Assembly (NCBI RefSeq): GCF_003985145.1 | Contig: NZ_ML133535.1 | Coordinates: forward strand, 1 to 64,000 | DNA: 64,000 bases | Source: Rhizobium anhuiense | GTDB lineage: Bacteria; Pseudomonadota; Alphaproteobacteria; Rhizobiales; Rhizobiaceae | Direction of reading: 5' to 3' | The notes under the pieces: generated by a model | What the model saw: only the letters and a program-made list of their open reading frames with translations | Database searches by the model: none | What the model was told of the DNA's origin: nothing | In this document: positions 25,772-44,631 of the stretch, piece by piece | Numbering within the stretch: position 1 is the first letter of the stretch | Layout of the letters: each line of letters opens with the position of its first letter | Made by a program: the position numbers and the translations under genes

Positions 25772-25785
25772 TTGGGACGAGTTCC

Positions 25786-25799: not shown

Positions 25800-25833
25800 G
25801 GCGAGGCTGCCGGACATCCCGTCCTATGAGGGC

Positions 25834-28464: not shown

Positions 28465-28552
28465 CGACAAGACGCGGCGGCCAGCCATGGCGGTAATTTG
28501 CGTGCGCCCGTCTGAAATCCCATCATGCAGTGGCCAGCGATGACCCATCGGC

Positions 28553-29536: not shown

Positions 29537-29659
29537 CAGCGTCTCCTCATTTCGCAAACCGTTACGGTCTTGAAAACGCGACGATCGGCATCGACGAGCG
29601 TCAAGCCTACGTCCTGCCCATTCTCGTTCGCCGTTTTCGTCATGTGACGGTGGGGTAGA

Positions 29660-29673
29660 TTGATCCTTCTCAA
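29660..29673. promoter_or_regulatory. FixK/FNR box between adhA-type and DUF3775 genes
   Basis: TTGATCCTTCTCAA, 9 of 10 matches, 66 bases before the DUF3775 start and 124 bases before the alcohol dehydrogenase start on the other strand. Confidence 0.7.
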
Positions 29674-29738
29674 TGCAACGGCAGCCCGATGTCACATGGT
29701 ATATAATTGAAATGAAATATTGGGCGCGGAGGCCACTT

Positions 29739-30170
29739 ATGAATGACCCTGTGAACGAGGCATGGATGCCGAGCATTTCCCCGGAGACCGTCCGCTATCT
29801 CATCCTCAAGGCTAAGGAGTTCGACGTCAAGGATGTCATCACCGAGCCGGATCCGGGCTCGAACCCGAGCGACGACAACATGATCGGAGTGCTGGAAGAT
29901 CATGACGACGATCCCGTCGAGACCGAACTCAGGAGTGCAATCTGGGCTCTCAACGAAGACGAACAGATCGATCTGGTCGCCTTGGCGTGGCTCGGTCGAG
30001 GCGATGGGAATGTCAATGATTGGGATGAGCTTCGCAGCCGAGCAGCGGATGCGCACAATAGACGCACAGCGGCCTATCTTCTCGGCATGCCTCTCCTGCC
30101 GGATTATCTCGAGGAGGCGCTCGACCAGTTCGGTGAGACGTCCACAGACGATGCGCTGGGCCGGCTCTGA
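29739..30170 (+). CDS. DUF3775 domain protein
   Basis: 143 residues from ATG 29739 with GGAGG six bases upstream. The sequence WMPSISPETVRYLILKAKEF at the N-terminus and the C-terminal AAYLLGMPLLPDYLEEALDQ match what I know of DUF3775, an acidic, mostly helical family found next to stress and respiration genes in alpha-proteobacteria. No catalytic residues are known. It is the first gene of a unit continuing into the MgtC-like protein and a P1B ATPase. Confidence 0.75.
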   Translation: MNDPVNEAWMPSISPETVRYLILKAKEFDVKDVITEPDPGSNPSDDNMIGVLEDHDDDPVETELRSAIWALNEDEQIDLVALAWLGRGDGNVNDWDELRSRAADAHNRRTAAYLLGMPLLPDYLEEALDQFGETSTDDALGRL

Positions 30171-30232
30171 CATTGCCGGCGCATGATTCGAAATGAACGG
30201 CAACGACATAGACGGCACAGGTACCTTCCGCG

Positions 30233-31525
30233 ATGGATGGACCGGCACGTCTGGACCATCAGATGATGACATCATTGGTAACGACAGAAGCATTCCAGCG
30301 CCTCAGCCTCGCGCTTGCGATAGGCATCCTGGTCGGTATCGAGCGCGGCTGGCAGGATCGTGAGGCCGCGCCAGGCAAAAGGGTGGCGGGAATCCGCACC
30401 TATGGCCTGTCAAGTTTCCTGGGCGGCTTCTGCGGTTTCCTGCAGCCCGTCACGGGGCCAATTCTGCCGACGGCTATCTTTGTTTCCTTTTGCGTCACAA
30501 TCCTCGTTTTCAGCCGCATGCAGGCAACACATGACGAAGACTACAGTGCAACCGGCACGATTGCCGCAATAACGGTCTTCGCACTGGGTTTCGGCGCGGT
30601 CGTTGCAGATATGACGGCAACGGCAGCAAGCGCGGTTGCAATAACGGCCCTTCTCGCCGCGCGGGAACCCTTGCATGGATTTCTTCGGCGCCTGACCTGG
30701 CTCGAGCTGAGGGCCGCCCTGATCCTGCTGACGATGACGGTCGTCATCCTCCCGATCCTGCCCAATGAGCCGGTCGATCCCTGGCAGGCGATCAATGTCT
30801 TCGAGCTTTGGATGATGACGATCCTGGTGGGAGCCGTTTCCTTTGTTGGTTATATCCTGATCAAGATTGGCGGCGCCCGTGCCGGAATCCTGTTGACCGG
30901 CGCCAGCGGCGGTATCGTCTCGTCGACAGCCCTGACGCTTTCCTTTGCCCGCCAGTCGATACAGATGCCCGCCCTCTCACCGCTCCTTTCAGCCGGAGCG
31001 ATGCTGGCGGGAGCCGTTTCTCTCGCCCGGGTGCTTTTGATTTGCGGCCTCATTGCACCGGCTGTACTCAAGGAGCTGGCTCCATCGCTCGCTCCCGCTG
31101 CCATGATCTTCGCCATCGGAGGCGGCCTTGCCGCATCGTTGCGGCGCCCGGACGAGAGCACTGATTTTTTGCCGCGAAACCCGCTTGAGGTCATGGTCGT
31201 GCTGCGTTTCGCGCTTGTTCTCGCCGTCGTGACCGTCCTGACACGCTTGACCCTGATCGTCTTCGGAACCCAGTCATTGGTCGCCCTTGCGTTCATCACC
31301 GGACTGGGCGATCTCGATGCGATAACACTTGCCGTGGCGAAACTGTCATCCATCCAGGTGCCTGCAGATGCAGCCGCTCGCGCCATAGCGGTCGCGGCGT
31401 TCGCCAATATGCTTGCGAAGGCCGTTCTTGCGGCAAGTGTTGGGAGCATCGCCTATGCAATTCGTTTCGCGATCGCAGGCTGTGTCGCGACTTTTGCTGG
31501 GATTGCCGGCTTGGTTCTGGCATGA
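30233..31525 (+). CDS. MgtC/SapB and DUF4010 membrane protein
   Basis: 430 residues with about ten to twelve membrane helices. The N-terminal part (LALAIGILVGIERGWQDRE, then GIRTYGLSSFLGG) is the MgtC/SapB-like domain, and the C-terminal half is the DUF4010 membrane domain with GASGGIVSSTALTLSFARQS. MgtC relatives modulate ATP synthase or ion homeostasis; this fused form is uncharacterised. The stop overlaps the next ATG (ATGA at 31522), so it is coupled to the P1B ATPase, pointing to a joint role in ion handling. The start could also be the ATG at 30263. Confidence 0.85.
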   Translation: MDGPARLDHQMMTSLVTTEAFQRLSLALAIGILVGIERGWQDREAAPGKRVAGIRTYGLSSFLGGFCGFLQPVTGPILPTAIFVSFCVTILVFSRMQATHDEDYSATGTIAAITVFALGFGAVVADMTATAASAVAITALLAAREPLHGFLRRLTWLELRAALILLTMTVVILPILPNEPVDPWQAINVFELWMMTILVGAVSFVGYILIKIGGARAGILLTGASGGIVSSTALTLSFARQSIQMPALSPLLSAGAMLAGAVSLARVLLICGLIAPAVLKELAPSLAPAAMIFAIGGGLAASLRRPDESTDFLPRNPLEVMVVLRFALVLAVVTVLTRLTLIVFGTQSLVALAFITGLGDLDAITLAVAKLSSIQVPADAAARAIAVAAFANMLAKAVLAASVGSIAYAIRFAIAGCVATFAGIAGLVLA

Positions 31526-33381
31526 GTGCTTCTTCGCGTATCAATTACCGCCTTCCAATAACCTTCACGGTTATTCACCGCATTTGGCCTCTTTCGCTCG
31601 CGGCTATCGCAATCACAGGCCTCATCGTCGGCGGTCTGTTGCGGTGGTGGCATGGCGATCTGCTTTTCTGGTCCACCACCGCTCTGGTCAGCGCGACGAT
31701 CACTGTCATCGTCGCGCTTTCTGTTGACGTCGCACTCAGTTTGAGGCGTGGCGATATCGGCCTGGATCTTATCGCGGCCCTGTCCATGAGTGCTGCGCTC
31801 TGGTTTGGCGAATATTTTGCCGGCGCCATCGTTGCTGTCATGTATGCAGGCGGGCAGTTTCTGGAAAGCTTTGCTCAAGGGCGCGCAGAGAGCGGTATGA
31901 GCGAACTTCTGTCTCGCGCCCCCCGTAGCGCTGTTCGTGTCACCGCATCCGGCCTGTCCGAGGTTCCCATCGCGGCACTTGTCCCGGGAGACAAGCTGCT
32001 CGTCCGAAAGGGCGACGTGGTCCCTGCCGATGGCAAGGTTGTAGCCGGTCACGCGCTCTTGAACGAGGCGGCTCTCACCGGCGAGCCGTTGCCGGCGCGG
32101 CGGGAAAGCGGTGAATTGATCATGAGCGGGTCTTCCAATCTCGGCGATGCTTTTGAAATGATCGCCTCCGGCTCAGCAAGCGAAAGTACATATGCCGGAA
32201 TAATCCGCATGGTGAGCCAGGCCCGAAACTCGAAAGCGCCAATATCGAGATTGGCCGACCGCTTCTCCCTCGCCTTCCTGGCGATGACCCTGGTGATCGC
32301 CGGCCTGGCCGCATGGTTGTCGGGCGATCCCACGCGGATTGTTGCAGTTCTGGTCGTCGCGACACCTTGCCCGCTGATTCTCGCCGTTCCCGTCGCACTC
32401 GTGGCGGGAATGTCGAAAGCTGCCCGTGCAGGCGTCCTGGTCAAAGGAGCTCATGTCCTCGAGGTCCTCGCGACCATCTCGGTGGTCGTCTTCGACAAGA
32501 CAGGCACGCTGACGACTGGAGAGCCTGCTGTTGTCAGAATCGAGACCGATCGGGATGCCGAGGAGATTTTGCGTCTCGCGGCATCCGTGGATCAAGCCTC
32601 TGGCCACGTGATTGGTCAAACGATTGTCGAAGAAGCGAAGCGACGTGGCCTGAGGCTTGCCAAACCTGCCCAACTCGCAGAAGTGCCAGGAGAAGGCATC
32701 GAGGGATATGTGGACGGACGCAAGGTAGCCGTTGGCGGATGGGATTTCATTGCCGGCAAGACAAGGTCCGCCACTCGCCCTGGCCCGAAGGACAACAGCA
32801 CGGTCACAGCCTATGTCGCGATCGATGACGCTCTCGCCGGTACGATCGTCATGGCCGACCCGGTTCGCAAGGATGCTGTCCCGGCGATCGCGGATCTTCG
32901 ACGTTTGGGCGTCAAGCGGCTTAGCCTTGCGACCGGTGACAGGGCCGAAGTCGCGGACGCCGTCGGCCTTGCTCTTCGTCTTGATCAGATCAGTGCCGAG
33001 CTTGAGCCGGCCGAGAAAGTTCAGAGGGTGACGGCGGAAAGATCCTACGGGCGCGTCATGATGATCGGTGATGGCGTCAACGATGCACCTGCACTTGCTG
33101 CTGCCGACGTCGGTGTTGCCGTTGGCCGGCGCAATCTTGCCGCCGCCGCTGAAGCGGCGGATGTCGTGTTGCTGCGGGATGACCTGGGGCAGATTGGAAC
33201 TCTGCTGCAAACCGCGCGGCGGTCCCGTGCGATCGCTCTTCAGAGTGTCGCTTGCGGTGTCGGTCTATCGGTGATCGCGATGGTTTGTGCGAGCCTGGGA
33301 TACCTCACGCCTGTGCAGGGCGCCCTTCTCCAGGAGGTGATCGATGTTGCCGTGATCGGCAACGCACTCCGTGCTCTCTAG
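31522..33381 (+). CDS. P1B-type heavy-metal ATPase with TPC membrane motif
   Basis: 619 residues without any N-terminal HMA domain. Visible: about six to eight membrane helices, actuator motif LTGEP (185-189, where TGES is usual), transmembrane metal motif TPC (281-283, replacing CPC), DKTGT with Asp325, GDGVNDAP near the end. The HP locus reads SGHVIG (His362-Val), so the usual His-Pro is His-Val. These departures place it outside the copper (CPC) groups; the substrate is not predictable. It is translationally coupled to the MgtC/DUF4010 gene, and the stop abuts the convergent USP gene. Confidence 0.9.
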   Translation: MSASSRINYRLPITFTVIHRIWPLSLAAIAITGLIVGGLLRWWHGDLLFWSTTALVSATITVIVALSVDVALSLRRGDIGLDLIAALSMSAALWFGEYFAGAIVAVMYAGGQFLESFAQGRAESGMSELLSRAPRSAVRVTASGLSEVPIAALVPGDKLLVRKGDVVPADGKVVAGHALLNEAALTGEPLPARRESGELIMSGSSNLGDAFEMIASGSASESTYAGIIRMVSQARNSKAPISRLADRFSLAFLAMTLVIAGLAAWLSGDPTRIVAVLVVATPCPLILAVPVALVAGMSKAARAGVLVKGAHVLEVLATISVVVFDKTGTLTTGEPAVVRIETDRDAEEILRLAASVDQASGHVIGQTIVEEAKRRGLRLAKPAQLAEVPGEGIEGYVDGRKVAVGGWDFIAGKTRSATRPGPKDNSTVTAYVAIDDALAGTIVMADPVRKDAVPAIADLRRLGVKRLSLATGDRAEVADAVGLALRLDQISAELEPAEKVQRVTAERSYGRVMMIGDGVNDAPALAAADVGVAVGRRNLAAAAEAADVVLLRDDLGQIGTLLQTARRSRAIALQSVACGVGLSVIAMVCASLGYLTPVQGALLQEVIDVAVIGNALRAL

Positions 33382-34203
33382 TTAGTGGCAAAAGAGAGCG
33401 GGCATTTCAAGGCGCGTCAACAGTGACCGTGTGACCCCACCCAGAACGAATTCGCGCAGCCGCGAATGACCGAACGCGCCGGCGACCAGCAAATCAGCCT
33501 TGCGTTCCAGCGCCGCAGCTTGGATGACGCCGGCTGACGGTTCTCCGTTCGCCTGGACGGCCGTGACATCGACGGCAAGGCCGGCCTTTCGAAGTGCAGC
33601 CGCAAGGTGGTCTCGCCTGCGCTCGTCAATCTGCTTGTCGTCGGTCACGGAAATCAGGACGACACGCGAAGCCTGTTCCAGCAGGAATCTGGCACCTGTC
33701 AGTGCCCGCGCGACGGTGGCTCCCCCATCCCAGGCGACGGCGACAGCATCGATCCGCCCGCAGAAATTGTCCGTGGGAAAAAGCAGGAGCGGTCTACCGC
33801 TTTCAAACAGCACGCTCTCGATCAGCGGCCTCATTATTTCGGATGCTTCCAGAATCGAAAGATCATATGCGCGTGACAGCTCGGCAAGAGCTTGGGCGAC
33901 AAACGGTTGCCTCGCGTCGAATGGCTGGATCTCAACCTCGATCTCGGCTTGCTTCGCATAGTCACGCAGCGTCTGCCCGAGAACGGCGCCATTGTCTCTG
34001 CTGACGTGCTCGGCATCCGCACGCATTTTTTCCACGTCAAGAAATGACGGAAGTCGCGGTTGCACGGGTTCAATTCTGACCAACGGTATACTTGCCGTTA
34101 AATCAGCCTTTTGGTGAAGGGAAACAGCGACAGCATTCTGAAGGAGCGAAAAGGAGCTTGCGTCTGGATAGGTGACTAGGGGCAAATGAAATTGCGCTTT
34201 CAT
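33382..34203 (-). CDS. universal stress protein, tandem UspA domains (USP 1)
   Basis: 273 residues from ATG 34203 (GGGAGGACA upstream). Two UspA-like domains (about 1-140 and 145-273). The second has the nucleotide-binding pattern G-x2-G-x9-GG-x-T (GAFGHSRLREFVLGGVTRS); the first lacks it, as is common in tandem USPs. It closely resembles the USP at 38838 (same MK-x(4)LPL-TYPDA opening and GHSRLREFVLGG end). Divergent from another USP with one FixK box between them. Confidence 0.9.
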   Translation of the reverse strand: MKAQFHLPLVTYPDASSFSLLQNAVAVSLHQKADLTASIPLVRIEPVQPRLPSFLDVEKMRADAEHVSRDNGAVLGQTLRDYAKQAEIEVEIQPFDARQPFVAQALAELSRAYDLSILEASEIMRPLIESVLFESGRPLLLFPTDNFCGRIDAVAVAWDGGATVARALTGARFLLEQASRVVLISVTDDKQIDERRRDHLAAALRKAGLAVDVTAVQANGEPSAGVIQAAALERKADLLVAGAFGHSRLREFVLGGVTRSLLTRLEMPALFCH

Positions 34204-34259
34204 GGGTGATGTCCTCCCGATGATTGGAGCTAGCATCGCCTGTTCGTGCGGCCCGCGCT

Positions 34260-34273
34260 TTGACGAAAATCAA
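34260..34273. promoter_or_regulatory. FixK/FNR box shared by two divergent USP genes
   Basis: TTGACGAAAATCAA, 9 of 10 matches, 57 bases from the minus-strand USP start (34203) and 62 bases from the plus-strand USP start (34335). The near-central position suggests activation in both directions. Confidence 0.8.
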
Positions 34274-34334
34274 GGTGATAAATCGCAGAAGCGCGAGCAT
34301 GATTTGAATGTCCTCACGAAGGAGGGAGCCAGCC

Positions 34335-35159
34335 ATGACTTTCAAATCCATCCTTACGCATTTCGATATCGATGCCCAGCCCGATCATCGCTTCACCTTT
34401 GCGATAAACCTCGCTGAGCGTTGCAATGCTGAACTCGCCTGCATATCCGCGGCCCAGCCGCTATTCGTGATCGAGCCAAGCATCGGACCGACATCCGGAA
34501 CCAAAATCATGCGTGAAGAGATGGAGGCCGTCGAGACGCGACAACGCGACCTGCACGAGCGGATCATGCGACATGCGCCGTTCAGGAACCACGTCTCCTG
34601 GCAGACAAAGGCTGCCGACCCGGCAACTTTTGTCGTTGAAAATGCACGAGCGGCCGACCTTATTGTCCTCTTTGATGTCGAGAAGGGTCAGGCACGCGAT
34701 TACCGACGCACGGTTAACATACCGGACGTTTTGCTGTCGGCGGGCAGACCGGTGCTGCTACCTTCGGCCTCCCGGGCTCCTCTGGAAGCTCAGACGATTG
34801 TGATTGCCTGGAAGGACACGAAGGAATCGCGGCGGGCAATTGTCGATGCGATGCCTCTGTTGATCTTGGCGCAAGACGTGGTCGTCCTTTCGATCGAGGA
34901 GAGCCACCCGATCGATGAGCAAGCGCTGAATGATGTTGTTCGGTTTCTCTCCCGCCATTCGGTTCCAGCCCGGAGCATCATCGAGCCGCGACAGACAGGC
35001 GATGCAGGGATGACGATCATCGAAGCTGCAGATAGGTTGGCGGCAGATCTGATTGTCGCAGGCGCATATAGCCACAATCGATTTCGCGAACGTGTCTTCG
35101 GAGGGATCACCCGCACGCTGCTCCATAACAACGCCATCAACCGGCTTTTGTCGAATTAA
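34335..35159 (+). CDS. universal stress protein, tandem UspA domains (USP 2)
   Basis: 274 residues from ATG 34335 (GAAGGAGGGAGCC upstream). Two UspA domains; the C-terminal nucleotide motif is GAYSHNRFRERVFGGITRT, where the second glycine is serine, so ATP binding may be altered. The N-terminal half (TFKSILTHFDIDAQ) is a different subtype from USP 1, so the divergent pair did not arise by simple duplication. Shares the FixK box at 34260. Confidence 0.88.
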   Translation: MTFKSILTHFDIDAQPDHRFTFAINLAERCNAELACISAAQPLFVIEPSIGPTSGTKIMREEMEAVETRQRDLHERIMRHAPFRNHVSWQTKAADPATFVVENARAADLIVLFDVEKGQARDYRRTVNIPDVLLSAGRPVLLPSASRAPLEAQTIVIAWKDTKESRRAIVDAMPLLILAQDVVVLSIEESHPIDEQALNDVVRFLSRHSVPARSIIEPRQTGDAGMTIIEAADRLAADLIVAGAYSHNRFRERVFGGITRTLLHNNAINRLLSN

Positions 35160-35208
35160 CCGGTACTCCAAGGCGGGGAGAGTCTCGCCTCTGTGGGAGT
35201 TTCAGTCA

Positions 35209-35222
35209 TTGCGCTCCATCAA
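35209..35222 (+). promoter_or_regulatory. FixK-type box (TTGCG variant) upstream of the FMN-binding protein gene
   Basis: TTGCGCTCCATCAA, 8 of 10 matches, 57 bases before the start at 35280. Confidence 0.55.
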
Positions 35223-35279
35223 CGACAGGGTGTGATCAGGTGGTAATATATGAACTTGTCGCGGCAAGGAGAGTTACCG

Positions 35280-35738
35280 ATGAGCTACATCCTGAAAGAC
35301 TTGACGCAAGCAGAATGCTTCGCCGTTCTTGAGCATTCCCGGTTTGGCCACCTGGCCTGTTGCAAGGATGACAAGCCCTACTTGGTGCCGATCTACTTCG
35401 CTTATGCAAAGGGTGTGATCTACAGTTTTTCCATGCCCGGCCGGAAGGTCGACTGGATGCGCGCGAACGAAAACGTCTGTTTGCAAATCGACCAGCATGG
35501 CACGGGCAAGGGCTGGACGAGCGTCGTCGTCGATGGGCGCTTCGAAGAGTTTCCGGATACAGACCTTTGGCGCAATGAAAGGCTGCAAGCCTGGTCGTTG
35601 CTGCAAAAACACTTCGATTGGTGGGAAATCGGTGCCTTGAAGCCGCAGCCGCAGGCAACGGCCTCGGAGTCCGAGCACATATTTTACGGCATATTTGTCC
35701 GTGAGGTTACCGGTCGAACGGCGCTTTCCGTTGATTGA
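35280..35738 (+). CDS. pyridoxamine 5'-phosphate oxidase-like FMN-binding protein
   Basis: 152 residues from ATG 35280 with AAGGAG eight bases upstream. A split-barrel flavoprotein of the pyridoxamine-phosphate-oxidase-related group, with LEHSRFGHLACCKDDKPYLV and the phosphate-binding stretch FSMPGRKVDWMRANENVCLQ. Proteins of this type bind FMN, F420 or heme and often act as reductases; the double cysteine (ACC) is notable. It is a single-gene unit with a TTGCG-variant FixK box and a strong terminator. Confidence 0.85.
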   Translation: MSYILKDLTQAECFAVLEHSRFGHLACCKDDKPYLVPIYFAYAKGVIYSFSMPGRKVDWMRANENVCLQIDQHGTGKGWTSVVVDGRFEEFPDTDLWRNERLQAWSLLQKHFDWWEIGALKPQPQATASESEHIFYGIFVREVTGRTALSVD

Positions 35739-35769
35739 AAGCCGGGCCGTTGATTGAAAACCGGGGGAG

Positions 35770-35797
35770 GACGCCCGGGATGAACCCGGGCGTTTTG
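35770..35797 (+). terminator. Rho-independent terminator after the FMN-binding protein gene
   Basis: A nine-base-pair stem (35771-35779 with 35785-35793), loop ATGAA, followed by TTTGCTC. It lies between convergent genes and may serve both. Confidence 0.82.
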
Positions 35798-35798
35798 C

Positions 35799-36632
35799 TC
35801 AATGGGCGAGGAACAGGGGAATTTTGGTTTCCTCCAGCATCGATCGCGTTACACCGCCAAAAAGACGCTGCTGAAGCCGGGGATGATTATATGCGCCCAT
35901 GACGATCATGTCGGCAGCGACATCGGCGGCATGCTGGCGCAGCACCTCATCGACGCGGCGGCCGCCGCTTGCGACGCAATCCACATCAACTTTCACCCCG
36001 TGGCGTGCCAGAAAGGTGGCAACGTCAGCGCCTGGTTCTTCACCATTCGCCGATGATGATGCCAGCGGATCGACGAGCGTGATATGCACCGATTCAGCAG
36101 CCTGCAGGAACTCGATCGACTGACGTGCCGCGCGCGAAGCCTCGTCGCTGGAGTCCCAGGCCAGCAGGATCGCTTTTGGAGCAAGCCCGACATTGGACTT
36201 TCTCGGGTTGATCAGCATCGGTGTCGGCGACCGGAACAGGGCACCATCGATAACCCTGCGCCGCAGTTCCTGGTCACGGGCGGCCTGAGGGCCGACCAGG
36301 ACGAGATCGGCATAGAGTGCCCGCTCTGCAATATCTTCGTCCGCCCAGGCGAATTCGGTGTAGATCTCCTGCACCTCGAAAGAGACCTCGCTCCTTGCGA
36401 GGACTGCTTTGATCTCGGAACTCTTATCGGCCAGGCGATCGATTTCGCGCTGACGTTCTTCGACCCAGACCGTCGAGACAACCTCGTAGGAACCGATAGG
36501 GGGCGCTGCGCCCATCGAAATCGCCATTGCGGTGAGATGGGCGCCGTGGGTTTCGCAAAAGTCGATGGCGCCCTTCAAGTCTTCGTCGAAGTGATTGACG
36601 CCGAGGACGCTCAAAACAGTTTTGATGGTCAT
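35799..36632 (-). CDS. universal stress protein, tandem UspA domains (USP 3)
   Basis: 277 residues from ATG 36632. Two UspA domains; the C-terminal motif is GAYNHPRLQQRLFGGVTRS, with asparagine for the second glycine. The N-terminal domain begins MTIKTVLSVLGVNHFDEDL and is distinct from USP 1, 2 and 4. A TTGCG-variant FixK box lies 59 bases upstream, in the divergent gap with the metallo-hydrolase gene. Confidence 0.88.
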   Translation of the reverse strand: MTIKTVLSVLGVNHFDEDLKGAIDFCETHGAHLTAMAISMGAAPPIGSYEVVSTVWVEERQREIDRLADKSSEIKAVLARSEVSFEVQEIYTEFAWADEDIAERALYADLVLVGPQAARDQELRRRVIDGALFRSPTPMLINPRKSNVGLAPKAILLAWDSSDEASRAARQSIEFLQAAESVHITLVDPLASSSANGEEPGADVATFLARHGVKVDVDCVASGGRRVDEVLRQHAADVAADMIVMGAYNHPRLQQRLFGGVTRSMLEETKIPLFLAH

Positions 36633-36691
36633 GACCAGTTGCCTCTCTTGTTGGAATTGACCAACCCTAATCTCCCTTGCTCCCCCATTCA

Positions 36692-36705
36692 TTGATCTGC
36701 CGCAA
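36692..36705. promoter_or_regulatory. FixK-type box (TTGCG variant) between USP 3 and metallo-hydrolase genes
   Basis: On the minus strand TTGCGGCAGATCAA, 8 of 10 matches. It is 59 bases from the USP 3 start (36632) and 52 bases from the metallo-hydrolase start (36758), so it could serve both. Confidence 0.6.
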
Positions 36706-36757
36706 AGCGGTCGGTGTTCCCGCCGGCTAGGATGTGTAAACAATTGGGGGGCAGGCC

Positions 36758-38359
36758 ATGTCAGATCCTGTTTTATATTTTCACGGTGCAGCCGGATCGG
36801 TGACCGGCTCCTGCTTTCTTTTGGACCATCGTGGTGTTCGGATCGTGATCGATTGCGGCATGTTCCAAGGATCGAAAACGGAGAAGGAGCTGAACTATCG
36901 TCCTTTCCCTTTCGAGCCGGCCGCCGTTGACGCTGTCATTTTGACCCACGCACATATCGATCATTCGGGCCTAGTCCCCAAGCTGGTGAAGGCCGGGTTT
37001 GCCGGACATATTTACTGTACCGCTGCCACCTTGGACCTGTGCGGGATCATGCTCCAGGACTCCGGCCATATCCAGGAATCGGAGGTCGAGCAGCTCAATC
37101 GCCGCAATCGCTGGAGATCACGCGACGCCATAGAACCAATTTACAACGCGGATGACGCACGAGTCGCGATGACGCAATTTCAAGCCGTCGCTCATAAGGA
37201 ATGGCACGAGCTTTCTGGCCACCTCCGCTTCCGGTTCTGGGACGCCGGCCATCTTCTCGGCTCCGCATCGGTCGAAATCGAGCTTTCGGGAACGGATGAA
37301 CCGATCCGAATGCTGTTTTCGGGCGATATCGGGCCTCAGCATAAATTGCTGGAGGCTGCACCCGAAGCGCCCCAGGGGTTCGACTATGTCATCTGCGAAA
37401 GCACCTATGGCGATCGCGAGCGGGACGAAGTTTCGGATGAAGCACGGCGCGGGCTGCTCCTTGAAATTGTGCTGAAGGCCCATCACCCAAGCGGCGCTTT
37501 GCTGATTCCGTCCTTTGCGGTCGAACGAACCCAGGAGCTTCTGGCTGATCTCAACATCCTGATGGACGAAGGCAGTCTGCCGCGCTGTCCGATCGTGATC
37601 GACTCGCCGCTCGCGTCGCGCGCCACTGCGATATTCAAGCGTTACGCGCGCGCCATGGCGAACGGTAATTTGCTGGTCAAAGCATTGAATTCGAAGAACG
37701 TGCGCTTCACGGAAACCGCCGAGCAATCGAAGGCGCTCGACCTTATCCGTGGCTTCCACATTATCATCGCGGCAAGCGGAATGTGCGAGGCGGGCCGGAT
37801 TCGTCATCGGCTCAAGAACTGGCTTTGGCGCGATGAGGGCAGTGTTCTCATCGTCGGTTTTCAGGCGGAGGGAACGCTCGGACGTCTACTCCAAGACGGA
37901 GCGCGCACGGTCAGGATCCAAGGCGATGAAATCGTCGTGCGTGCAACCATTCACTCTCTGGAGGCGTATAGTGGTCATGCCGATGCGACCGAATTGATGC
38001 AGTGGGTGGCAGCGCGCAAACCGGTTCGAACAGGATTGTTCCTGGTTCATGGCGAAGATGCAGCGCGCGACCAGTTGAAATCCCGTTTGGCATTGGAGCA
38101 GCCGGATATCACGGTCCTTATCCCCTCGCTCGATGCTTGTTACCGCCTGACGAGGCAAGGCGCGGAACTCTTGGGCCCTGCTTCCCCGCGCCCGCGTCTT
38201 GCACCACAAGAGGTTGGCCATCCTGATTGGCACAATGAGTACCAGTCGATCGTTATCGACTTGGAAGAGCGCTTGCGCCGTCGACCTGATCGAAAGGGAC
38301 GAGCGGTGATCCTGCGTCGGGTGAAAAGAGCGCTCGATGATGAAATGGGAGAACAATGA
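36758..38359 (+). CDS. metallo-beta-lactamase-fold, beta-CASP RNA-processing-type hydrolase
   Basis: 533 residues. The N-terminal metallo-beta-lactamase domain has H-x-H-x-DH (THAHIDHSG; His64, His66, Asp68, His69) and later DAGHLLGSASVEIE and SGDIG; a beta-CASP domain follows (LLIPSFAVERTQELL, IDSPLA) and the C-terminal RNA-specificity part has HSLEAYSGHAD. This is the archaeal/bacterial CPSF-like (YSH1/RNase J-related) nuclease layout, so RNA cleavage is likely. The stop overlaps the ATG of the next gene (ATGA). Finding it in a hypoxia island suggests RNA turnover during oxygen limitation (inference). Confidence 0.9.
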   Translation: MSDPVLYFHGAAGSVTGSCFLLDHRGVRIVIDCGMFQGSKTEKELNYRPFPFEPAAVDAVILTHAHIDHSGLVPKLVKAGFAGHIYCTAATLDLCGIMLQDSGHIQESEVEQLNRRNRWRSRDAIEPIYNADDARVAMTQFQAVAHKEWHELSGHLRFRFWDAGHLLGSASVEIELSGTDEPIRMLFSGDIGPQHKLLEAAPEAPQGFDYVICESTYGDRERDEVSDEARRGLLLEIVLKAHHPSGALLIPSFAVERTQELLADLNILMDEGSLPRCPIVIDSPLASRATAIFKRYARAMANGNLLVKALNSKNVRFTETAEQSKALDLIRGFHIIIAASGMCEAGRIRHRLKNWLWRDEGSVLIVGFQAEGTLGRLLQDGARTVRIQGDEIVVRATIHSLEAYSGHADATELMQWVAARKPVRTGLFLVHGEDAARDQLKSRLALEQPDITVLIPSLDACYRLTRQGAELLGPASPRPRLAPQEVGHPDWHNEYQSIVIDLEERLRRRPDRKGRAVILRRVKRALDDEMGEQ

Positions 38360-38724
38360 TGTTGGTTACAGATCGTGACTGCCAGAGCGGAGGAGCGCGA
38401 TTTGCCGTGCCGACGCTCGGCGAAATCGAAGGAAAACTTCTGGTTTCGGAAGTGGTCGCTACCAGCTGCCTGCGGCACCTTTTCGCTCACACGAACGATG
38501 CCGTTGTGCCTGCCATCAAACGCCGGATCAGACGATCGCTCGAAACCCGCTGCCAGGCGGAAAAGCTCTGCCACGATGATACGGAAGCGGCCGTGGAATA
38601 TGCTTTTCAACTGGTGGAGGGGGCAGCCGAAGCGGCCGGCAGGAAGCGGACGGTTTCATCGAAACCTGGCGGCTGCGAGACGATTCGTCGGCTGAGGGCG
38701 ATGCATGGTCCTTCCGGTCGTTAG
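38356..38724 (+). CDS. hypothetical protein coupled to the beta-CASP hydrolase
   Basis: 122 residues starting in an ATGA overlap with the metallo-hydrolase stop. The sequence has a short beta-like start and a helical middle (FAHTNDAVVPAIKRRIRRSL) with four spaced cysteines; no membrane helix. No family recognised. Tight coupling suggests it works with, or regulates, the hydrolase. Confidence 0.6.
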   Translation: MMLVTDRDCQSGGARFAVPTLGEIEGKLLVSEVVATSCLRHLFAHTNDAVVPAIKRRIRRSLETRCQAEKLCHDDTEAAVEYAFQLVEGAAEAAGRKRTVSSKPGGCETIRRLRAMHGPSGR

Positions 38725-38787
38725 GTTGGAAGGGAGAATAACCGGCGTGCATATGTTCCATGCCTTCGATTGTTCTGGCGATACGAG

Positions 38788-38808
38788 TTCGGAGCCGTTT
38801 GCTCCGAA
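38788..38808. terminator. possible bidirectional terminator hairpin
   Basis: An eight-base-pair stem (38788-38795 with 38801-38808) with a five-base loop in the convergent gap between the hypothetical gene and USP 4. No T-run, so it is a weak call. Confidence 0.35.
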
Positions 38809-38837
38809 TTCGATCGTTGAAGATGGCGTGCCAGTGC

Positions 38838-39662
38838 TCAATGCGACAGCAGGATAGGCAGGCTGATATTGGTCAGCACGGCTTGAGTAGCGCCGCCGAG
38901 CACGAATTCGCGCAGACGCGAATGGCCGAACCCGCCCATGACGAGAAGGTCTGCCCGCAATTCGAAGGCTTTGGTCTGCAGCACCTCGCCGACTGGTTCG
39001 CCGCGCGCACGCACGCGCGTCGCCTCCGCGACGACACCGCTCTTCAGCAGATTCTCCACCAGATAATCGCCGGTCTCGAATTCCACCGGCTTCTCGTCGA
39101 TGACGGAAAGCAGGCAGACCTTGGAAGCCCGTTCCAGGAAAAACGAGGCATCATGTGCCGCCCGTGCGGCAGCGCGGCTGCCATCCCAGGCGATGGCGAC
39201 GTGATCCATCCGGCCGCCGAAAGGTGCAGACGGATATAGGATGAGCGGCCGACCTGACGCAAACAGCACCGCCTCGACGACCGGACGGGAGATCCCGGCC
39301 GATTCCAGAAGCACGAGATCGTAGGCGCGCGATGCTTCCGAAAGGACCTCGACGACGAAAGGCTCCGCAGTCTTGATCTCGCGCGTGCGCACATCCACGG
39401 AAGCGCCTTTTGCCGCATCGACCGCCATCCGGGTCAGCGCCGAGGCACGCTTGCGGCTGAGCGCCCCGGCATCCCGCGCCATCTTCGCCGCATCGATGAT
39501 CAGCGACGACAGGGCATTGGACACGTCGGGAACGGTAATCTCCACCGCACAGACGGTCAGCGTCGCCTGCATGTGGTGCGCAAGTGCGACGGCGTTGGCG
39601 ATCATGAATTCCGAAGTCGCATCCGGATAGGTGAGGAGCGGAAGAAAGAGGTGTTGCTTCAT
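38838..39662 (-). CDS. universal stress protein, tandem UspA domains (USP 4)
   Basis: 274 residues from ATG 39662. The closest relative within the window is USP 1: both open with LPL-TYPDA and share SRAYDL, then ESxLFxSGRPLxLxP and GHSRLREFVLGG. The C-terminal nucleotide motif G-x2-G-x9-GG is intact (GGFGHSRLREFVLGGATQ). A symmetric FixK-type box is 71 bases upstream. A paralogue pair with USP 1 that probably arose by duplication within the island. Confidence 0.9.
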   Translation of the reverse strand: MKQHLFLPLLTYPDATSEFMIANAVALAHHMQATLTVCAVEITVPDVSNALSSLIIDAAKMARDAGALSRKRASALTRMAVDAAKGASVDVRTREIKTAEPFVVEVLSEASRAYDLVLLESAGISRPVVEAVLFASGRPLILYPSAPFGGRMDHVAIAWDGSRAAARAAHDASFFLERASKVCLLSVIDEKPVEFETGDYLVENLLKSGVVAEATRVRARGEPVGEVLQTKAFELRADLLVMGGFGHSRLREFVLGGATQAVLTNISLPILLSH

Positions 39663-39732
39663 GCTGATCTCCAAACGGAAAGAGGCGAGAGCTGATATTC
39701 GCCACACTCTCGCACTGCCCTGGAATTATGAA

Positions 39733-39746
39733 TTGACGTACGTCAA
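39733..39746 (-). promoter_or_regulatory. FixK-type box upstream of USP 4
   Basis: TTGACGTACGTCAA, a perfect 14-base palindrome with TTGAC/GTCAA half-sites (8 of 10 to consensus), 70 bases before the USP 4 start. Confidence 0.65.
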
Positions 39747-39812
39747 AGAGGGCGCCCTTCTGCGTGACGACGGTGTTGATCGATAGGCTTGCCGGCGCAA
39801 GCTATGGACCGA

Positions 39813-40118
39813 TCAAGCTATGCTTGCCGGCTTGCTTTTGACATGCGCACTCTGCCGCCATGCAAGCAGATCGTCCGCGCCGATTCGGATGCGCCCATCC
39901 GGTTCGACGTCGCCGCAGTCATATTTCGCCGACGCAATCCGGCTGAACAAATCGATATTTTCCTGAAGCCGGCTTTCGTCGCAGCGTCGTGGTTCTGCGA
40001 CCTCCTGAAGAGCTCCCCTGTCAATGACGACCATCTGATTTGCGCCGCCCGCATCCATCGCAAGCAACGCTTCCTCGCCGGACGACTTCATCATTCCACT
40101 GATCAGTTTTAATGGCAT
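39813..40118 (-). CDS. small DUF1488-like protein, paralogue of the gene at 16471
   Basis: 101 residues from ATG 40118 (GGGAG upstream). The core VVIDRGALQEVAEP, then LFSRIASAKY and IRIGADDLLAWRQ aligns by eye with VIVSRRALLSVASP, FCEIAASG and ITANDVRRWRR of the protein at 16471. It has a perfect FixK box 106 bases upstream. No catalytic motif or membrane helix is visible. Function unknown. Confidence 0.6.
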   Translation of the reverse strand: MPLKLISGMMKSSGEEALLAMDAGGANQMVVIDRGALQEVAEPRRCDESRLQENIDLFSRIASAKYDCGDVEPDGRIRIGADDLLAWRQSAHVKSKPASIA

Positions 40119-40224
40119 CACCCTATCTCCCGACCGATTGATCTCTTTGGAAAACCTGCCGCAGGAATGTTGTTGGACTGCCTGGGCAAGTTGCCGGACC
40201 TTATCCCTGCTCGAAAAGCATGCC

Positions 40225-40238
40225 TTGATACACATCAA
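40225..40238 (-). promoter_or_regulatory. perfect FixK/FNR box upstream of the small DUF1488-like gene
   Basis: TTGATACACATCAA, a perfect match, 106 bases before the start at 40118. It is the last clear FixK box moving right through the window. Confidence 0.82.
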
Positions 40239-40349
40239 AGGAGACGGCTTGCTGAACGAATGGCAAGGTCCTGCAGGGGGGGAGCTACGCGTGGGCGGCG
40301 GAACGCTTCCGGCAGGCCGCTTGCGCAGCCCGCCGGCGCCTCGCGCTCC

Positions 40350-40586
40350 TCACGCCTCAACGATCACAGCCGTCAGCCGCTTGACCACCGGCAGCACCAG
40401 TAGCAGGACAGGAAAGGCGATCGCCCAGGAGAGCAGCCATGCCGAGGGCCACATAGCAAGGGCAGGCGCGGTCAGGCCTTGGGCTCTCACGATACTGATC
40501 GCCGAGACGACTGACGTCATCAGCAGCGAGAGGATGAACGGCATGATGATCGTATTGTAACGTTTAGGGAGTTTGCCTTTGAGCAT
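40350..40586 (-). CDS. DUF2798 small membrane protein
   Basis: 78 residues from ATG 40586 (GGAGATCGAA upstream) with two membrane helices (about 10-32 and 47-70) and the family's PKRYNTIIMPFILSLLMTSV opening. DUF2798 proteins are small inner-membrane proteins of unknown role. A possible degenerate FixK-like sequence lies about 60 bases upstream (TTGATTGACGTAAA) but is not convincing. Confidence 0.75.
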   Translation of the reverse strand: MLKGKLPKRYNTIIMPFILSLLMTSVVSAISIVRAQGLTAPALAMWPSAWLLSWAIAFPVLLLVLPVVKRLTAVIVEA

Positions 40587-40823
40587 TTCGATCTCCGTAA
40601 GGTGCCGATCAGACAATTGCGCAGCGCCGACCGGCGGGTTGCGCGTTGATTGACGTAAACGCTTACGGAGCTTCGATCTGAAGCAACGCCGTCTCTATGG
40701 CCGAAAATGTCTTGCCGTTCAAGTCCGCCTCACCTCCTTCCGATCGTCTTTGCCAATTCCTCAACGAAAGGAATTATCCTTGTTGCCGCAATCTCAGCGA
40801 TTCGGCTCCAGGACCTTCAGCCA

Positions 40824-41546
40824 ATGACCAGAGCAAGACGCCGCCGCATCATCCGGACCAGACGAACCCTGACCGGGCTCGCCCTCGTCGGCTCGATTTC
40901 GTTTCTCGCCGGTATGACTGATGCAACCGGTCTTCTGCTCACCGGCGATTTCGTTTCCTTCATGACCGGCAATACGACGCGGGCCGCACTCGCCTTGAGT
41001 GAGGGCAATCTTTATCACGCGGCAGTCCTGGTCTCTGCCATCATCGTCTTCGTGCTCGGCAATGCGGCAGGCATCGTCATCTCTCATCTTTCGCAACGCC
41101 GCATCTTCGTGGTGCTTGGCTGCGTCGGCCTCGTCCTGGCGCTCGCCTCGATGATGACGGTGCAAAACATGCTCTTCGCCCGGTTCTACCTGATCGTTTT
41201 TTCCATGGGCATGGTGAACGCCGCCGTCGAGCACATCGAAGGCCTGCCGATCGGCCTGACCTATGTAACCGGTGCCCTGTCGCGCTTCGGCCGCGGGATC
41301 GGCCGCTGGATCATCGGTGATCGTCGTGTCGAATGGACGATCCAGATCGTACCCTGGGGCGGCATGGTGCTTGGTGCAATCGTCGGCGCCGTCCTGACGC
41401 GGCTGACCGGCGCGCATGCGCTGTGGCTGGTCTCCCTCTTTGCCATGGCGCTGGCGCTTGTCGCCATGCTCATCCCGCGGCCGCTCCAGCGCCGCTTCAA
41501 TCAGAAGATCCCGCCGCACGGATCGGCCGTGCGGCGCGCGAAATAG
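40824..41546 (+). CDS. DUF1275 (YoaK-type) membrane protein
   Basis: 240 residues from ATG 40824 with about six membrane helices and the family signatures FLAGMTDATGLLLTGDFVSF, MTGNTTR and TYVTGALSRFGRGIGR. DUF1275 members are uncharacterised inner-membrane proteins with a pseudo-repeat. No FixK box seen; this gene probably lies outside the microaerobic island. The upstream reading frame is open to 40707 but the membrane domain fits 40824. Confidence 0.85.
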   Translation: MTRARRRRIIRTRRTLTGLALVGSISFLAGMTDATGLLLTGDFVSFMTGNTTRAALALSEGNLYHAAVLVSAIIVFVLGNAAGIVISHLSQRRIFVVLGCVGLVLALASMMTVQNMLFARFYLIVFSMGMVNAAVEHIEGLPIGLTYVTGALSRFGRGIGRWIIGDRRVEWTIQIVPWGGMVLGAIVGAVLTRLTGAHALWLVSLFAMALALVAMLIPRPLQRRFNQKIPPHGSAVRRAK

Positions 41547-41613
41547 ACCGTCGCATTCCTGTTACCGTCGAATCGGATAGAAGGGACCGCCGCCAATCCT
41601 CAAGGAGTGGGTC

Positions 41614-42402
41614 TTGTTCCTGATTTCGAAGCTTGTCTGGATTTTCGCTCAGCCGCTGTCGCTGGCATTCTTCCTCGTCTTCTTGGCCCTCATTGCCGGC
41701 CTTCTGCGCTGGCGTATCTTAAGTATCCTCGGCGCAGCTGGTTCGGCCCTCATCCTTTTCGTTACGCTCTACACCACGGCTGGCAACCTCCTGATGCAGG
41801 GTCTCGAGCAGCGCTTCGCAAAGCCGGCCGCCGATCCCGACAACCTGCAGTGCATGATCGTGCTCGGCGGCGCCTTCGAAAACGAGGTGAACACGGCGCG
41901 CCACGGCATAGAATTCAATGGCGGAGCCGACCGCTTCGTCGAAGCTCTGCGGCTCGCGCAGAAATTTCCGCAGTCGCGCATTCTGGTATCGGGCGGCGAC
42001 GGTTCGATCTCGGGCGTCTACGAAGGCGATGCGGCGGCATCCGAGCGGTTCTTCCCGCTCTTCGGCGTTGGCAAGGATCGCCTGATCGAGGAGAGACAAT
42101 CGCGCACGACCTTCGAAAACGCCGTCAACACCAAGGAATTCCTGGCAAGCCAGGGGCTTTCCCATTGCCTGCTGATCACCTCGGGCTTTCATATGCCGCG
42201 ATCCGTCGGCATCTTCCGCAAGCTCGGCATCGATATCGTGCCCTGGCCGACCGATTATCGCACCGACGGCCAGATGAGACTTGGATTGGATTTCACCCAG
42301 CCGAACCTCAATGCCCAGAACTTGGCAACCGCCATCCGCGAATGGTACGGCCTGGTCGGCTATTATCTCGCCGGCCGCACGTCGGAACTTTATCCGCAAT
42401 AG
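41614..42402 (+). CDS. YdcF/ElyC-family (DUF218) envelope protein
   Basis: 262 residues with two N-terminal membrane helices (about 1-25 and 30-52) and a DUF218 domain with CMIVLGGAFE, RILVSGGDG, SRTTFENAVNT and LLITSGFHMPRS, the pattern of ElyC/SanA/YdcF. Such proteins are linked to lipid-carrier or peptidoglycan metabolism. The start is a TTG at 41614 with AGGAG nine bases upstream. Confidence 0.9.
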   Translation: MFLISKLVWIFAQPLSLAFFLVFLALIAGLLRWRILSILGAAGSALILFVTLYTTAGNLLMQGLEQRFAKPAADPDNLQCMIVLGGAFENEVNTARHGIEFNGGADRFVEALRLAQKFPQSRILVSGGDGSISGVYEGDAAASERFFPLFGVGKDRLIEERQSRTTFENAVNTKEFLASQGLSHCLLITSGFHMPRSVGIFRKLGIDIVPWPTDYRTDGQMRLGLDFTQPNLNAQNLATAIREWYGLVGYYLAGRTSELYPQ

Positions 42403-42499
42403 AGCGCCGCGCGTCCAACAGGACGTGCCAAGGACGCTCGATCGCTTTGACTTTGCGCATGACCCGAATATCGATTCCGATTTCGGGTCATATGCTGCG

Positions 42500-42973
42500 C
42501 TATTTCTTCGAGATGGTGACGAATTTCGTGCCGCGGACGCGGGCCGTCACGATGCAGGGATCGCCCTCCGTGCGGTCGCAGAAACGCGGATGCATCTTCA
42601 TCGCCAGCACCATGTTGCCGAAGCGCTGGACGAAGTCGTAGCCATAGATCTGCGCCGTCGCGATCATGAAATAACCGCCTTCGGCAACCTGCAGGTAGAA
42701 ATTATAGGTGCAGCCGTCGTCATTGCATTGCGGCCCCTTCTGCCCGTCGCAGGTCAGCTGACCCTCATTGACCACCGCGTCGATCAGACCGTCATTGTTG
42801 ATGTCCTGCCGGGTGACGAAGCCGTCGGCAAATTCGGCCGTCTTGCACTGCTCCTGGAAATGTTTCTTCTCGTAGATCTCAGGATCGGAAATCAGCGATT
42901 GCTGGCCGAAGGCGACAGCCGGCATGACAAGCAGCAGGACGATATTCAGAACGGCGAGCACCAGCGTTTTCAC
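42500..42973 (-). CDS. small exported protein, unknown function
   Basis: 157 residues from a GTG at 42973, which has GAGG eight bases upstream and places a signal peptide (about 1-22, ending PAVAFG/QQ) at the N-terminus; the frame is open to 43021. The mature protein has six cysteines in the C-terminal two thirds (for example TCDGQKGPQCNDDGC) that could form disulfides, and a DINNDGLIDAVVNEG segment resembling an FG-GAP/EF-hand-like loop. No family recognised. Confidence 0.7.
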   Translation of the reverse strand: MKTLVLAVLNIVLLLVMPAVAFGQQSLISDPEIYEKKHFQEQCKTAEFADGFVTRQDINNDGLIDAVVNEGQLTCDGQKGPQCNDDGCTYNFYLQVAEGGYFMIATAQIYGYDFVQRFGNMVLAMKMHPRFCDRTEGDPCIVTARVRGTKFVTISKK

Positions 42974-43008
42974 GGCTTTCCTCTTTGGATAAAGGCTCTG
43001 TGGCCCAA

Positions 43009-43054
43009 TGCATGTCGCCAAAACTGTGCAGCGGTTCTAGGACAACGACATGCA
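43009..43054. repeat. rhizobial palindromic intergenic element, copy A
   Basis: A hairpin bounded by TGCATGTCG and CGACATGCA, with a core resembling AAAACTGTGCAGCGGTT. It matches in layout the element at 51417-51464, including the GCGCA/TGCGC-like centre. Confidence 0.7.
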
Positions 43055-43186
43055 TCACGTAAAGACTCGAGCTTTATGGCGCCCCCGCCTTGCGCCGCCC
43101 TTGCCGCCGTGGTTCTGTTCTCGAGAACAGAATGATTTTAGGCCTAATTGGCCCAAAATCTGAATCCTGTTGTCAATTCAAGAGTT

Positions 43187-43236
43187 AGAGCATGATGTCA
43201 TGAGAAAACCGCTCACACTTTTCGGCATCATGCTCT
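43187..43236. repeat. rhizobial palindromic intergenic element, AGAGCATGATG type
   Basis: An 11-base perfect inverted repeat (43187-43197 with 43226-43236) around a GAAAACCGCTCACACTTTTC core. I know this as a common repeat in Rhizobium intergenic regions, often carried upstream of genes. Confidence 0.75.
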
Positions 43237-43261
43237 GAACGTCTGCCGGTTCGGGGTTCGC

Positions 43262-43897
43262 ATGTCCTTGCTCGTCTATCTCGATTATGCCGGCATTGCG
43301 CTGTTTGCCGCGACAGGCGCGCTCGCCGCGTCACGCAAGCAATTGGACCTCATCGGTTTTTTGTTTTTCGCCATGGTGACGGGAACGGGCGGGGGTACGG
43401 TACGTGATATCGTGCTCGGCCGCGTTCCGGTCTTCTGGGTGCTGAACCCAGGCTATATCCTCGTCTGCTGCATCATGGGCGTCATCGTCTTTTTCACCGC
43501 CCACCTGCTGGAATCGCGCTATCGTCTGCTGATCTGGCTGGATGCGATCGGCCTTGCCGCCTATTGCGTGATCGGCGCCGCCAAGGGCCTTGCCGCCACC
43601 GGCTCCCCGACCATCGCGATCGTCACCGGCACGCTGACGGCGACCTTCGGTGGCATCCTGCGTGATCTGATGGCAAACGAGCCTTCGGTGCTGTTGAGGC
43701 CGGAAATCTACGTGACCGCAGCCCTCATCGGCGCCGGTGTGTTCACGGCGGCCAATGCGCTCGGAATGCAGCTCTATCTGGCGTCTGCCTGCGGCGTCGT
43801 GGCGGCCTTTGCGGTGCGCGGCGGAGCCCTGTGGTTCGGCTGGACCTTCCCGACCTACAAGCACAAGCCCGGCCGGCATCCCGACGATGTCATGTGA
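43262..43897 (+). CDS. TRIC-family (UPF0126) membrane channel protein
   Basis: 211 residues with about seven membrane helices in two repeated UPF0126 units; signatures are GTGGGTVRDIVLGRVPVFW and the second-unit GTLTATFGGILRDLMANE, each a G-x-G-x2-RD-type turn. The family forms trimeric cation channels (K+/Mg2+-like). The gene starts at 43262 right after palindromic repeats and converges with irr. Confidence 0.9.
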   Translation: MSLLVYLDYAGIALFAATGALAASRKQLDLIGFLFFAMVTGTGGGTVRDIVLGRVPVFWVLNPGYILVCCIMGVIVFFTAHLLESRYRLLIWLDAIGLAAYCVIGAAKGLAATGSPTIAIVTGTLTATFGGILRDLMANEPSVLLRPEIYVTAALIGAGVFTAANALGMQLYLASACGVVAAFAVRGGALWFGWTFPTYKHKPGRHPDDVM

Positions 43898-43910
43898 AGC
43901 GGCGGTGTCG

Positions 43911-44330
43911 TCAGCCCTGCTTTGCCCGCAGCCGGATCACCACGTCGACATGAGCGATCTCCATGCCCTCTGGCGGTTCCGGCAGATTGCCGATCGTCAG
44001 GTTGCTGACGGGAATGTCGAGCACCTCGTTCTCGCCTTCGATGAAGAAATGGTGATGGTCGGACACATTGGTGTCGAAATAGGTCTTGGCGCTTTCGACG
44101 GCGAGGACGCGGATCAGACCGGCTTCCGTGAACTGGTGCAGCGTGTTGTAGACGGTTGCCAGCGAAACCGGCACACCGGCGGCAACCGCCTCCTCATGCA
44201 GTTCCTCGACGGTCAAATGCCGGTCGCCCTTGGCAAACAGGAGGTCGCCGAGCGCCACACGCTGGCGGGTAGGGCGCAGTCCTGCACCGCGCAGCCTTAC
44301 CTCTATTGCGATCGGGAGCGTACCCGTCAT
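43911..44330 (-). CDS. irr: iron response regulator Irr (Fur family)
   Basis: 139 residues of the Fur superfamily. It has a winged-helix DNA-binding domain (LRPTRQRVALGDLLFAKGDR, then LATVYNTLHQFTEAGLI) and the HHH heme-linked motif (SDHHHFF) of rhizobial Irr. It lacks the CxxC pair of Fur proteins and the N-terminal cysteine heme-regulatory motif of B. japonicum Irr, as in R. leguminosarum. Irr represses heme and other iron-using genes when iron is low. The start at 44330 is preceded by CGGAG. Divergent from fabA. Confidence 0.92.
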   Translation of the reverse strand: MTGTLPIAIEVRLRGAGLRPTRQRVALGDLLFAKGDRHLTVEELHEEAVAAGVPVSLATVYNTLHQFTEAGLIRVLAVESAKTYFDTNVSDHHHFFIEGENEVLDIPVSNLTIGNLPEPPEGMEIAHVDVVIRLRAKQG

Positions 44331-44631
44331 CAAGACCAACTCCGGTTATTCTGGCATAAAGCAATCATGTTTCTTCAAGCGGTATAACTTTTGCACCGGA
44401 GCCTTTCAATAGTTCAATGAGGGCAAGAGCCTGATAAACGCGGCAAAAACCGGCTTTTGACGCAAATAGGTCTGGTCGCGGCCCTGGCCTTCCTGTATGC
44501 GACCACCAAATAATGGCGCAAGCCTGGTCCGGGGCGATGAATGAAGCTGCCTTGCTCGTGCTTCATTTTCTGAAGAACTTGGACTACACGTTCACATCCA
44601 TCGGCTTCACGCGGGGGGAAAAAGAAACTTT
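44331..44631. other. irr-fabA divergent intergenic region
   Basis: About 300 bases with no gene. It should hold the promoters of irr and fabA. I see an imperfect palindrome CGGTATAACTTTTGCACCG near 44380 and no FixK box. Confidence 0.5.

Follow-up and report, generated by a model that had tools for sequence, protein, structure and literature searches.

The first 64,000 bases of contig C15 of Rhizobium anhuiense, here called the window (positions given without a contig name refer to it), join a cluster of microaerobic respiration genes, fixNOQP among them, to genes of the core chromosome around irr. We conclude that this junction is very probably the right edge of an old island of about 48 kb, which sits at a transfer RNA (tRNA)-Ala(GGC) hotspot in the chromosome and consists mostly of a cluster of the type found on plasmid pRL9 of R. 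johnstonii (leguminosarum) strain 3841. The island would lie between cmk-aroA-tRNA-Ala on one side and DUF2798-DUF1275-irr on the other, with hemA, ccm, fixGHI, fixNOQP, a FixK-like regulator, a hybrid sensor kinase, azu, hemN and stress genes as its cargo. An initial annotation of the window had offered a chromosomal fix island and an integrated plasmid segment as alternatives, and the two appear to hold together. C15 (174,772 bp) belongs to a draft genome of 7.12 Mb in 44 contigs.

The right edge could be fixed to five bases because the homologies of its plasmid side and its core side overlap in one TCCGG motif. Homology to three R. leguminosarum plasmids, pRL3b2 among these, ends at position 40268, and homology to plasmid pRltCC275eF of R. 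brockwellii extends to 40312. On the core side, the start of homology was tabulated for 28 loci (L013-L040, from 38 named loci printed). It falls at 40308 or 40309 in 13 of them, two being the island carriers Vaf-46 and UPM1133, and likewise in L097. The remaining 15 loci match from 40337 (one locus) or from 40702-40746 (14 loci, in which the DUF2798 stretch is unmatched at the site). Base composition was ruled out as a marker of the join, since the content of guanine and cytosine (GC) makes no step there (0.598 at 39-41 kb and 0.601 at 40-42 kb). The sharp boundary between island and core described in the initial annotation is a real join and is sharp in homology only. Neither the toxin-antitoxin genes nor the insertion sequence (IS) genes that flank the cluster in pRltCC275eF were seen at this join, and between 39.5 and 45.5 kb no Rfam family matched at gathering scores.

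An error of assembly or scaffolding that fused a plasmid contig to the chromosome has to be considered in a draft of 44 contigs, which was indeed interrupted at repeated copies of ccm and hemA. We nevertheless give it almost no credence, because the join lies inside a 174.8-kb contig and both of its sides are without another close match in the genome. The separate assemblies of Vaf-46 (L017/L110) and UPM1133 (L019/L111) contain the same right join, so the assembly error that the initial annotation had named as a possible undoing of its boundary fails as an explanation. A shorter version related to the island occupies this site in the four-contig assembly of genome G080. In the two other copies of the join TCCGG occurs twice, 87 bp apart in Vaf-46 and 86 bp apart in UPM1133, whereas a single TCCGG is present here; loss between these short repeats would explain the difference. 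The Vaf-46 contig starts inside the island. In UPM1133, only 174 bp of the DUF2798 side follow the join, succeeded in turn by about 4 kb with an IS-type transposase, by a 17-of-18 match to the tRNA end (L111:14295) and by the native flank.

The edge had originally been set at about 43.9 kb, which is 3.6 kb too far to the right because relatives carry 40.35-43.9 kb as core. The genes for DUF2798, DUF1275, DUF218, a hypothetical protein and Gly_transporter adjoin irr in the chromosomes of relatives, and irr itself, correctly called a core gene, matches the FUR family. This core side is found as well in two sequences recorded as chromosomes, those of R. johnstonii 3841 and strain Norway. Plasmid location, otherwise a mark of the pRL9-type microaerobic cluster, does not apply here, as the contig runs on into irr. 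Palindromic repeats had been noticed at 43.0-43.2 kb, and inverted repeats do exist at 43008-43055, 43113-43132 and 43187-43236, but they are dispersed elements. The stretch 43110-43245 folds better than all of 200 shuffled sequences (z -5.4, DNA parameters), and its 113-bp element has at least eight other copies on seven contigs of this genome (84-90% identity) and, among the matches listed, many in relatives (78-93%). It resembles the RIME elements of Rhizobium. These palindromes were ruled out as a recombination site: the element is dispersed and lies 2.8 kb off the join, and G080 matches in line across it.

The probable left end of the island is found on another contig, C26, as is the tRNA, which for that reason was invisible to the initial annotation; ARAGORN finds no tRNA in the window, in agreement with that annotation, which saw none at the join. 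In relatives, the core on this side reads rpsA, cmk, aroA, a TIGR02300-like gene (names assigned by eye) and tRNA-Ala(GGC). Here the tRNA gene occupies C26:2336-2411 within a flank at C26:2336-3245, and homology to the flank of empty sites stops exactly at its 3' end, C26:2336, as at the end of a tRNA island. Behind it follow an ArsR-type gene identified by Pfam, a LysE/RhtB-like gene (without a Pfam match and named from pRltCC275eF), a small gene and, where the contig stops, the terminal part of hemA. About 0.6 kb separate the tRNA from the left end of the plasmid-type cluster.

Between this end and C15 we would place the 4,513-bp contig C33, which contains two FNR boxes. C26:1742-1, C33 and window positions 1-40268 map to positions 557-44706 of pRL3b2 in one order and orientation, with 294 bp missing between C26 and C33 and about 989 bp between C33 and C15. 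Both gaps are collapsed repeats: C25 and C13 also carry hemA ends, and C30 and C3 carry ccm ends. The genes of C33, C30, C3, C25, C13 and part of C26 were named by eye. The competing ccm contigs C30 and C3 have degP-feuPQ-glnE-like and two-component neighbours, as a native operon would. C30, which bears the degP-, feuPQ- and glnE-like ones, runs through the ccm gap; it thus looks like the native ccm operon and would be joined to C3, so that C33 remains as the partner of C15. For the link between C26 and C33 we rely on the gene order of the plasmids. The order C26-C33-C15 across the two collapsed repeats would give an island of about 48.4 kb. About 80% of positions 1-40312 is matched by pRL3b2, at 87-91% identity.

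The tRNA-Ala site is an insertion hotspot. In a sample of 80 genomes of the genus, the two flanks lie on one contig and strand in 67. The site is empty or differently filled among these relatives: the spacing, extrapolated from match ends and therefore slightly negative in five cases, is at most 2 kb in 46 genomes, 2-8 kb in 5 and more than 8 kb in 16, with a maximum of 56 kb. Nine genomes, the present one included, have the flanks split over contigs or lack one flank. The flanks are opposite in orientation and 38-42 kb apart in G016, G070, G078 and G085. The tRNA-Ala(GGC) gene was found in 12 of 19 loci scanned and was not found within the stretch scanned in the other seven. The last 490 bp of the island have some match in 24 of 148 genomes of the genus, and over most of their length in six. 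Three of the 24 matches are at the hotspot (this genome, UPM1133 and Vaf-46), 20 do not share a contig with the tRNA-Ala gene of their genome, which in drafts need not mean another replicon, and one (G153) could be placed neither at nor away from the tRNA.

Related contents occur at the site in other genomes. The block of zinc alcohol dehydrogenase and DUF4010 genes is shared with the islands of Vaf-46, UPM1133 and G080; in G080 the site holds 8.7 kb with this block and with an ArsR gene that resembles the C26 one at 93%. No FixN match lies in the 13.6 kb at the site of UPM1133, and the site of Vaf-46 is split between contigs, so that part of it may be hidden. Several further features of the site were noticed. 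The gene that directly follows tRNA-Ala in G080 (L112 1321-3144) matches the CHAT domain below the cut-off, and the one in UPM1133 (L111 1338-2369) is a Beta_protein gene; these are perhaps defence cargo of the hotspot. Second, partial copies of DUF2798/DUF1275 lie left of the core copy in L020 (4344-4539 and 9498-10734) and L026 (7606-8215 and 9928-12301), as if duplicated by earlier hotspot elements. In L020, the last 18 tRNA bases are moreover repeated exactly at 3952, with no whole tRNA in the stretch scanned, and an inverted look-alike of the tRNA repeat was seen by eye near 40277 of the window.

The genome contains two full FixN matches, one on C15 and one at C20:57994-59613. The second copy, which the initial annotation had suggested looking for, stands beside a stretch that matches the rpoN-nifEN regions of symbiosis plasmids. 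A tree with 15 rows, built from 8.3 kb of fix DNA, groups the C20 copy with plasmids of WSM1274 and WSM4643 (support 100/100) and pairs the C15 copy, with the same support, with the copy on the symbiotic plasmid pRA_T24_3 (L182) of R. anhuiense T24, its nearest relative found (95%). This likeness suggests exchange inside the species. Another T24 plasmid, pRA_T24_2, has a 7.5-kb stretch that is matched in full by the present genome at a rounded 100%, on which the assignment to R. anhuiense is based. T24 plasmids are absent among the 60 listed of 65 records matching 30.2-40.3 kb and among the 40 listed of 80 matching 16.8-25.0 kb; such lists may omit near records, and one T24 plasmid does appear in another list. 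Their absence would fit a chromosomal cluster in T24 as well. The fix copies of Vaf-46 and UPM1133 have no pRL9-type neighbours in the stretches examined: in Vaf-46 the neighbours are those seen on C20, and the UPM1133 stretch ends inside the operon on that side. The statement in the initial annotation that fix genes of this group are located on plasmids has exceptions, as a 4.86-Mb contig of G080 carries another fixNOQP cluster (L200, C1:3238000-3257900) in pRL9-type order. This cluster lies about 1.3 Mb from tRNA-Ala, is 73-79% like pRL3b2 in its main matches, and has no tRNA in the 20 kb examined.

A recent insertion of a plasmid segment in this strain alone would agree with one finding: FixN matches are present in 53 of the 80 genomes, but this is the only one in which such a match and the hotspot flanks are no more than 100 kb apart on one assembled contig. 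We consider such an insertion very unlikely. The identity to the plasmids, about 90%, is no closer than that of core DNA between these species, the right join is common to Vaf-46 and UPM1133, and three genomes have islands in which part of this gene set recurs. The initial annotation had allowed that the gene order might prove ancestral in related strains; this holds in part, since the join looks old and is shared by three genomes, but no more than 2 kb were measured at the site in 46 of 67 genomes. The opposite direction of transfer, from a cluster long resident in the chromosome to the plasmids, is compatible with the pairing of the C15 fix copy with that of the T24 symbiotic plasmid. The C15 copy also lies outside the R. 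leguminosarum plasmid copies, much like the species itself: in a quick tree from 9 kb right of the join, this genome takes a position outside the ten R. leguminosarum complex rows. Such fix clusters, however, are found on many Rhizobium plasmids and the chromosomal site with fixN in one genome of 80, and we regard a chromosomal origin as very unlikely. In a broader scenario, which we rate as improbable, the tRNA-Ala site already served the ancestor shared by R. anhuiense and the R. leguminosarum complex as a lasting store of the low-oxygen cluster in the chromosome. Through erosion or loss of this store, most lineages would have been left with plasmid copies, the full set would have persisted in R. 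anhuiense, and fix genes would have passed between store and plasmids more than once, an exchange proposed because the nearest relative found of the chromosomal copy is on a symbiotic plasmid.

Several observations weigh against an old plasmid-derived island at the tRNA. None of the nine integrase (PF00589) matches in the genome is on C15, C26 or C33, in line with the initial annotation, which saw no integrase at the join. The last 18 bases of the tRNA were not found in the window with up to three mismatches, and some 440-490 bp that lie between the tRNA and position 40308 in L018, L021 and L097 are missing here; because of these three gaps, site-specific integration is not shown for this copy. 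The first ~590 bp behind the tRNA, which include the ArsR gene, are unmatched in both pRL3b2 and pRltCC275eF, so that two events are needed. The largest part unmatched in pRL3b2 is 25963-31573. C30 ends in 193 bp with which the starts of both C15 and C3 are identical, which makes the choice between C30 and C33 as the neighbour of C15 ambiguous by sequence alone, and gene order decides it. Finally, the four island genomes require three changes on the core tree, a score equalled in 65 of 500 shuffles, and a single insertion is therefore not proven. In our reading the island is nevertheless old: plasmid DNA would have entered by a recombination, probably with an element that already occupied the tRNA, and any integrase and right-hand tRNA repeat would since have been lost. 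The right join would later have been shortened in this lineage by loss of one TCCGG copy and the intervening 86-87 bp. The island is probably no longer a mobile unit, given that no integrase and no right-edge tRNA repeat were found and that the 440-490 bp of native DNA are lost.

The gene content agrees with a pRL9-type cluster (Table 1): a FixK-like regulator and a hybrid kinase stand beside fixNOQP with azu near, and the genome study of strain 3841 places fixK, fixL and azuP next to fixNOQP on pRL9 (PMC1557990). In work of 2021, hFixL is reported to act through FxkR on fixK (PMC7888657). Pfam profiles, with which 40 window proteins rather than every frame were scanned, also matched cbb3 assembly factors, Hsp20, universal stress proteins and a HemN-like radical SAM protein, HemN_C itself remaining below the cut-off. 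Among the same 40 proteins there were no nif, nod or transfer genes and no relaxase or type IV secretion genes. The FNR/FixK-type boxes had been said to end at 40238, and this proved correct: TTGANNNNGATCAA with at most one mismatch has 27 matches in the window, against 4.0 expected from shuffles, and none lies further right. The stricter TTGATN4ATCAA occurs at 18 sites in the genome (none for a reversed-pattern control), of which four are in the window, at 6868, 10658, 25786 and 40225, all left of the join. The last box, TTGATACACATCAA, is conserved in pRltCC275eF; Vaf-46 and UPM1133 have it with a single change in the spacer. Judging from gene content, the island is predicted to support respiration at low oxygen, which FixK/FnrN would control.

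Table 1. Features on both sides of the join (window positions; ORF, open reading frame)
Feature	Position	Strand	Basis or remark
Right part of the probable chromosomal island, pRL9-type microaerobic cluster	1..40307		About 80% matched by pRL3b2; contig begins at 1
fixG, fixH, fixI	2486..6815	-	Pfam FixG_C and P-type ATPase; order as annotated in L116
fixNOQP, cbb3 oxidase	7187..10578	-	Pfam COX1 and FixP_N; fixO and fixQ named from L116
FixK-like Crp regulator and hybrid PAS sensor kinase (hFixL-like)	10792..13491	+	Pfam; pRL9 neighbours alike
Pseudoazurin	13644..14108	+	Pfam Copper-bind; named in L116
Second Crp-type regulator (-) and response regulator (+)	16883..18488		Pfam
Zinc alcohol dehydrogenase (-) and MgtC/DUF4010 protein (+)	28553..31525		Pfam; unmatched in pRL3b2
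beta-CASP metallo-hydrolase (+) and universal stress protein (-)	36758..39707		Pfam; right end of plasmid cluster
Last island gene, hypothetical	39813..40118	-	Start by eye from R. brockwellii gene; listed ORF 39813-40238
FNR/FixK-type box	40225..40238		Last box in window; upstream of last island gene
Join TCCGG	40308..40312		Last bases with plasmid homology, first with core homology
DUF2798 gene	40350..40616	-	First core-side gene; DNA matched at the site in some relatives, unmatched in others
DUF1275 (+), DUF218 (+), hypothetical 42500-43021 (-), Gly_transporter (+)	40707..43897		Core; Pfam
Dispersed palindromic repeat, 113 bp	43124..43236		Repeat copies, folding
irr (FUR family)	43911..44339	-	Pfam

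The high-affinity oxidase that serves nodule respiration has been described on plasmids in strains 3841 and UPM791 (for 3841, PMC1557990). In R. anhuiense, a full low-oxygen set with its own regulators would be tied to the chromosome, in addition to a second set beside nif genes. If this is true, strains of the species should keep low-oxygen respiration despite loss or swap of plasmids, and the tRNA-Ala site would be a comparative record of plasmid-type DNA settling, and then decaying, in a chromosome. A literature search for Rhizobium islands that carry fix genes in the chromosome or lie at tRNA-Ala, which fell short of most subscription journals, gave no account of the present island. The symbiosis islands of Mesorhizobium (ICEMlSym) likewise carry fix genes in a chromosomal island; unlike them, the present island has no integrase that we could find, and the scanned window proteins include no nif, nod or transfer genes. 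The tRNA-abutting islands of strain 3841, for example RL0790-RL0841, are likewise variable DNA beginning at a tRNA gene (PMC1557990). They stand out by low GC at synonymous third codon positions (GC3s), whereas here total GC makes no step and the cargo consists of respiration genes. The clusters of pRL9, pRL3b2 and pRltCC275eF differ from the island in their location, which here is chromosomal behind tRNA-Ala, and pRL3b2 lacks the stretch 25963-31573 with the alcohol dehydrogenase and DUF4010 genes. They have the same gene content, the same order and the same FNR box, and in pRL3b2 both the right end and the left end on C26 are matched.

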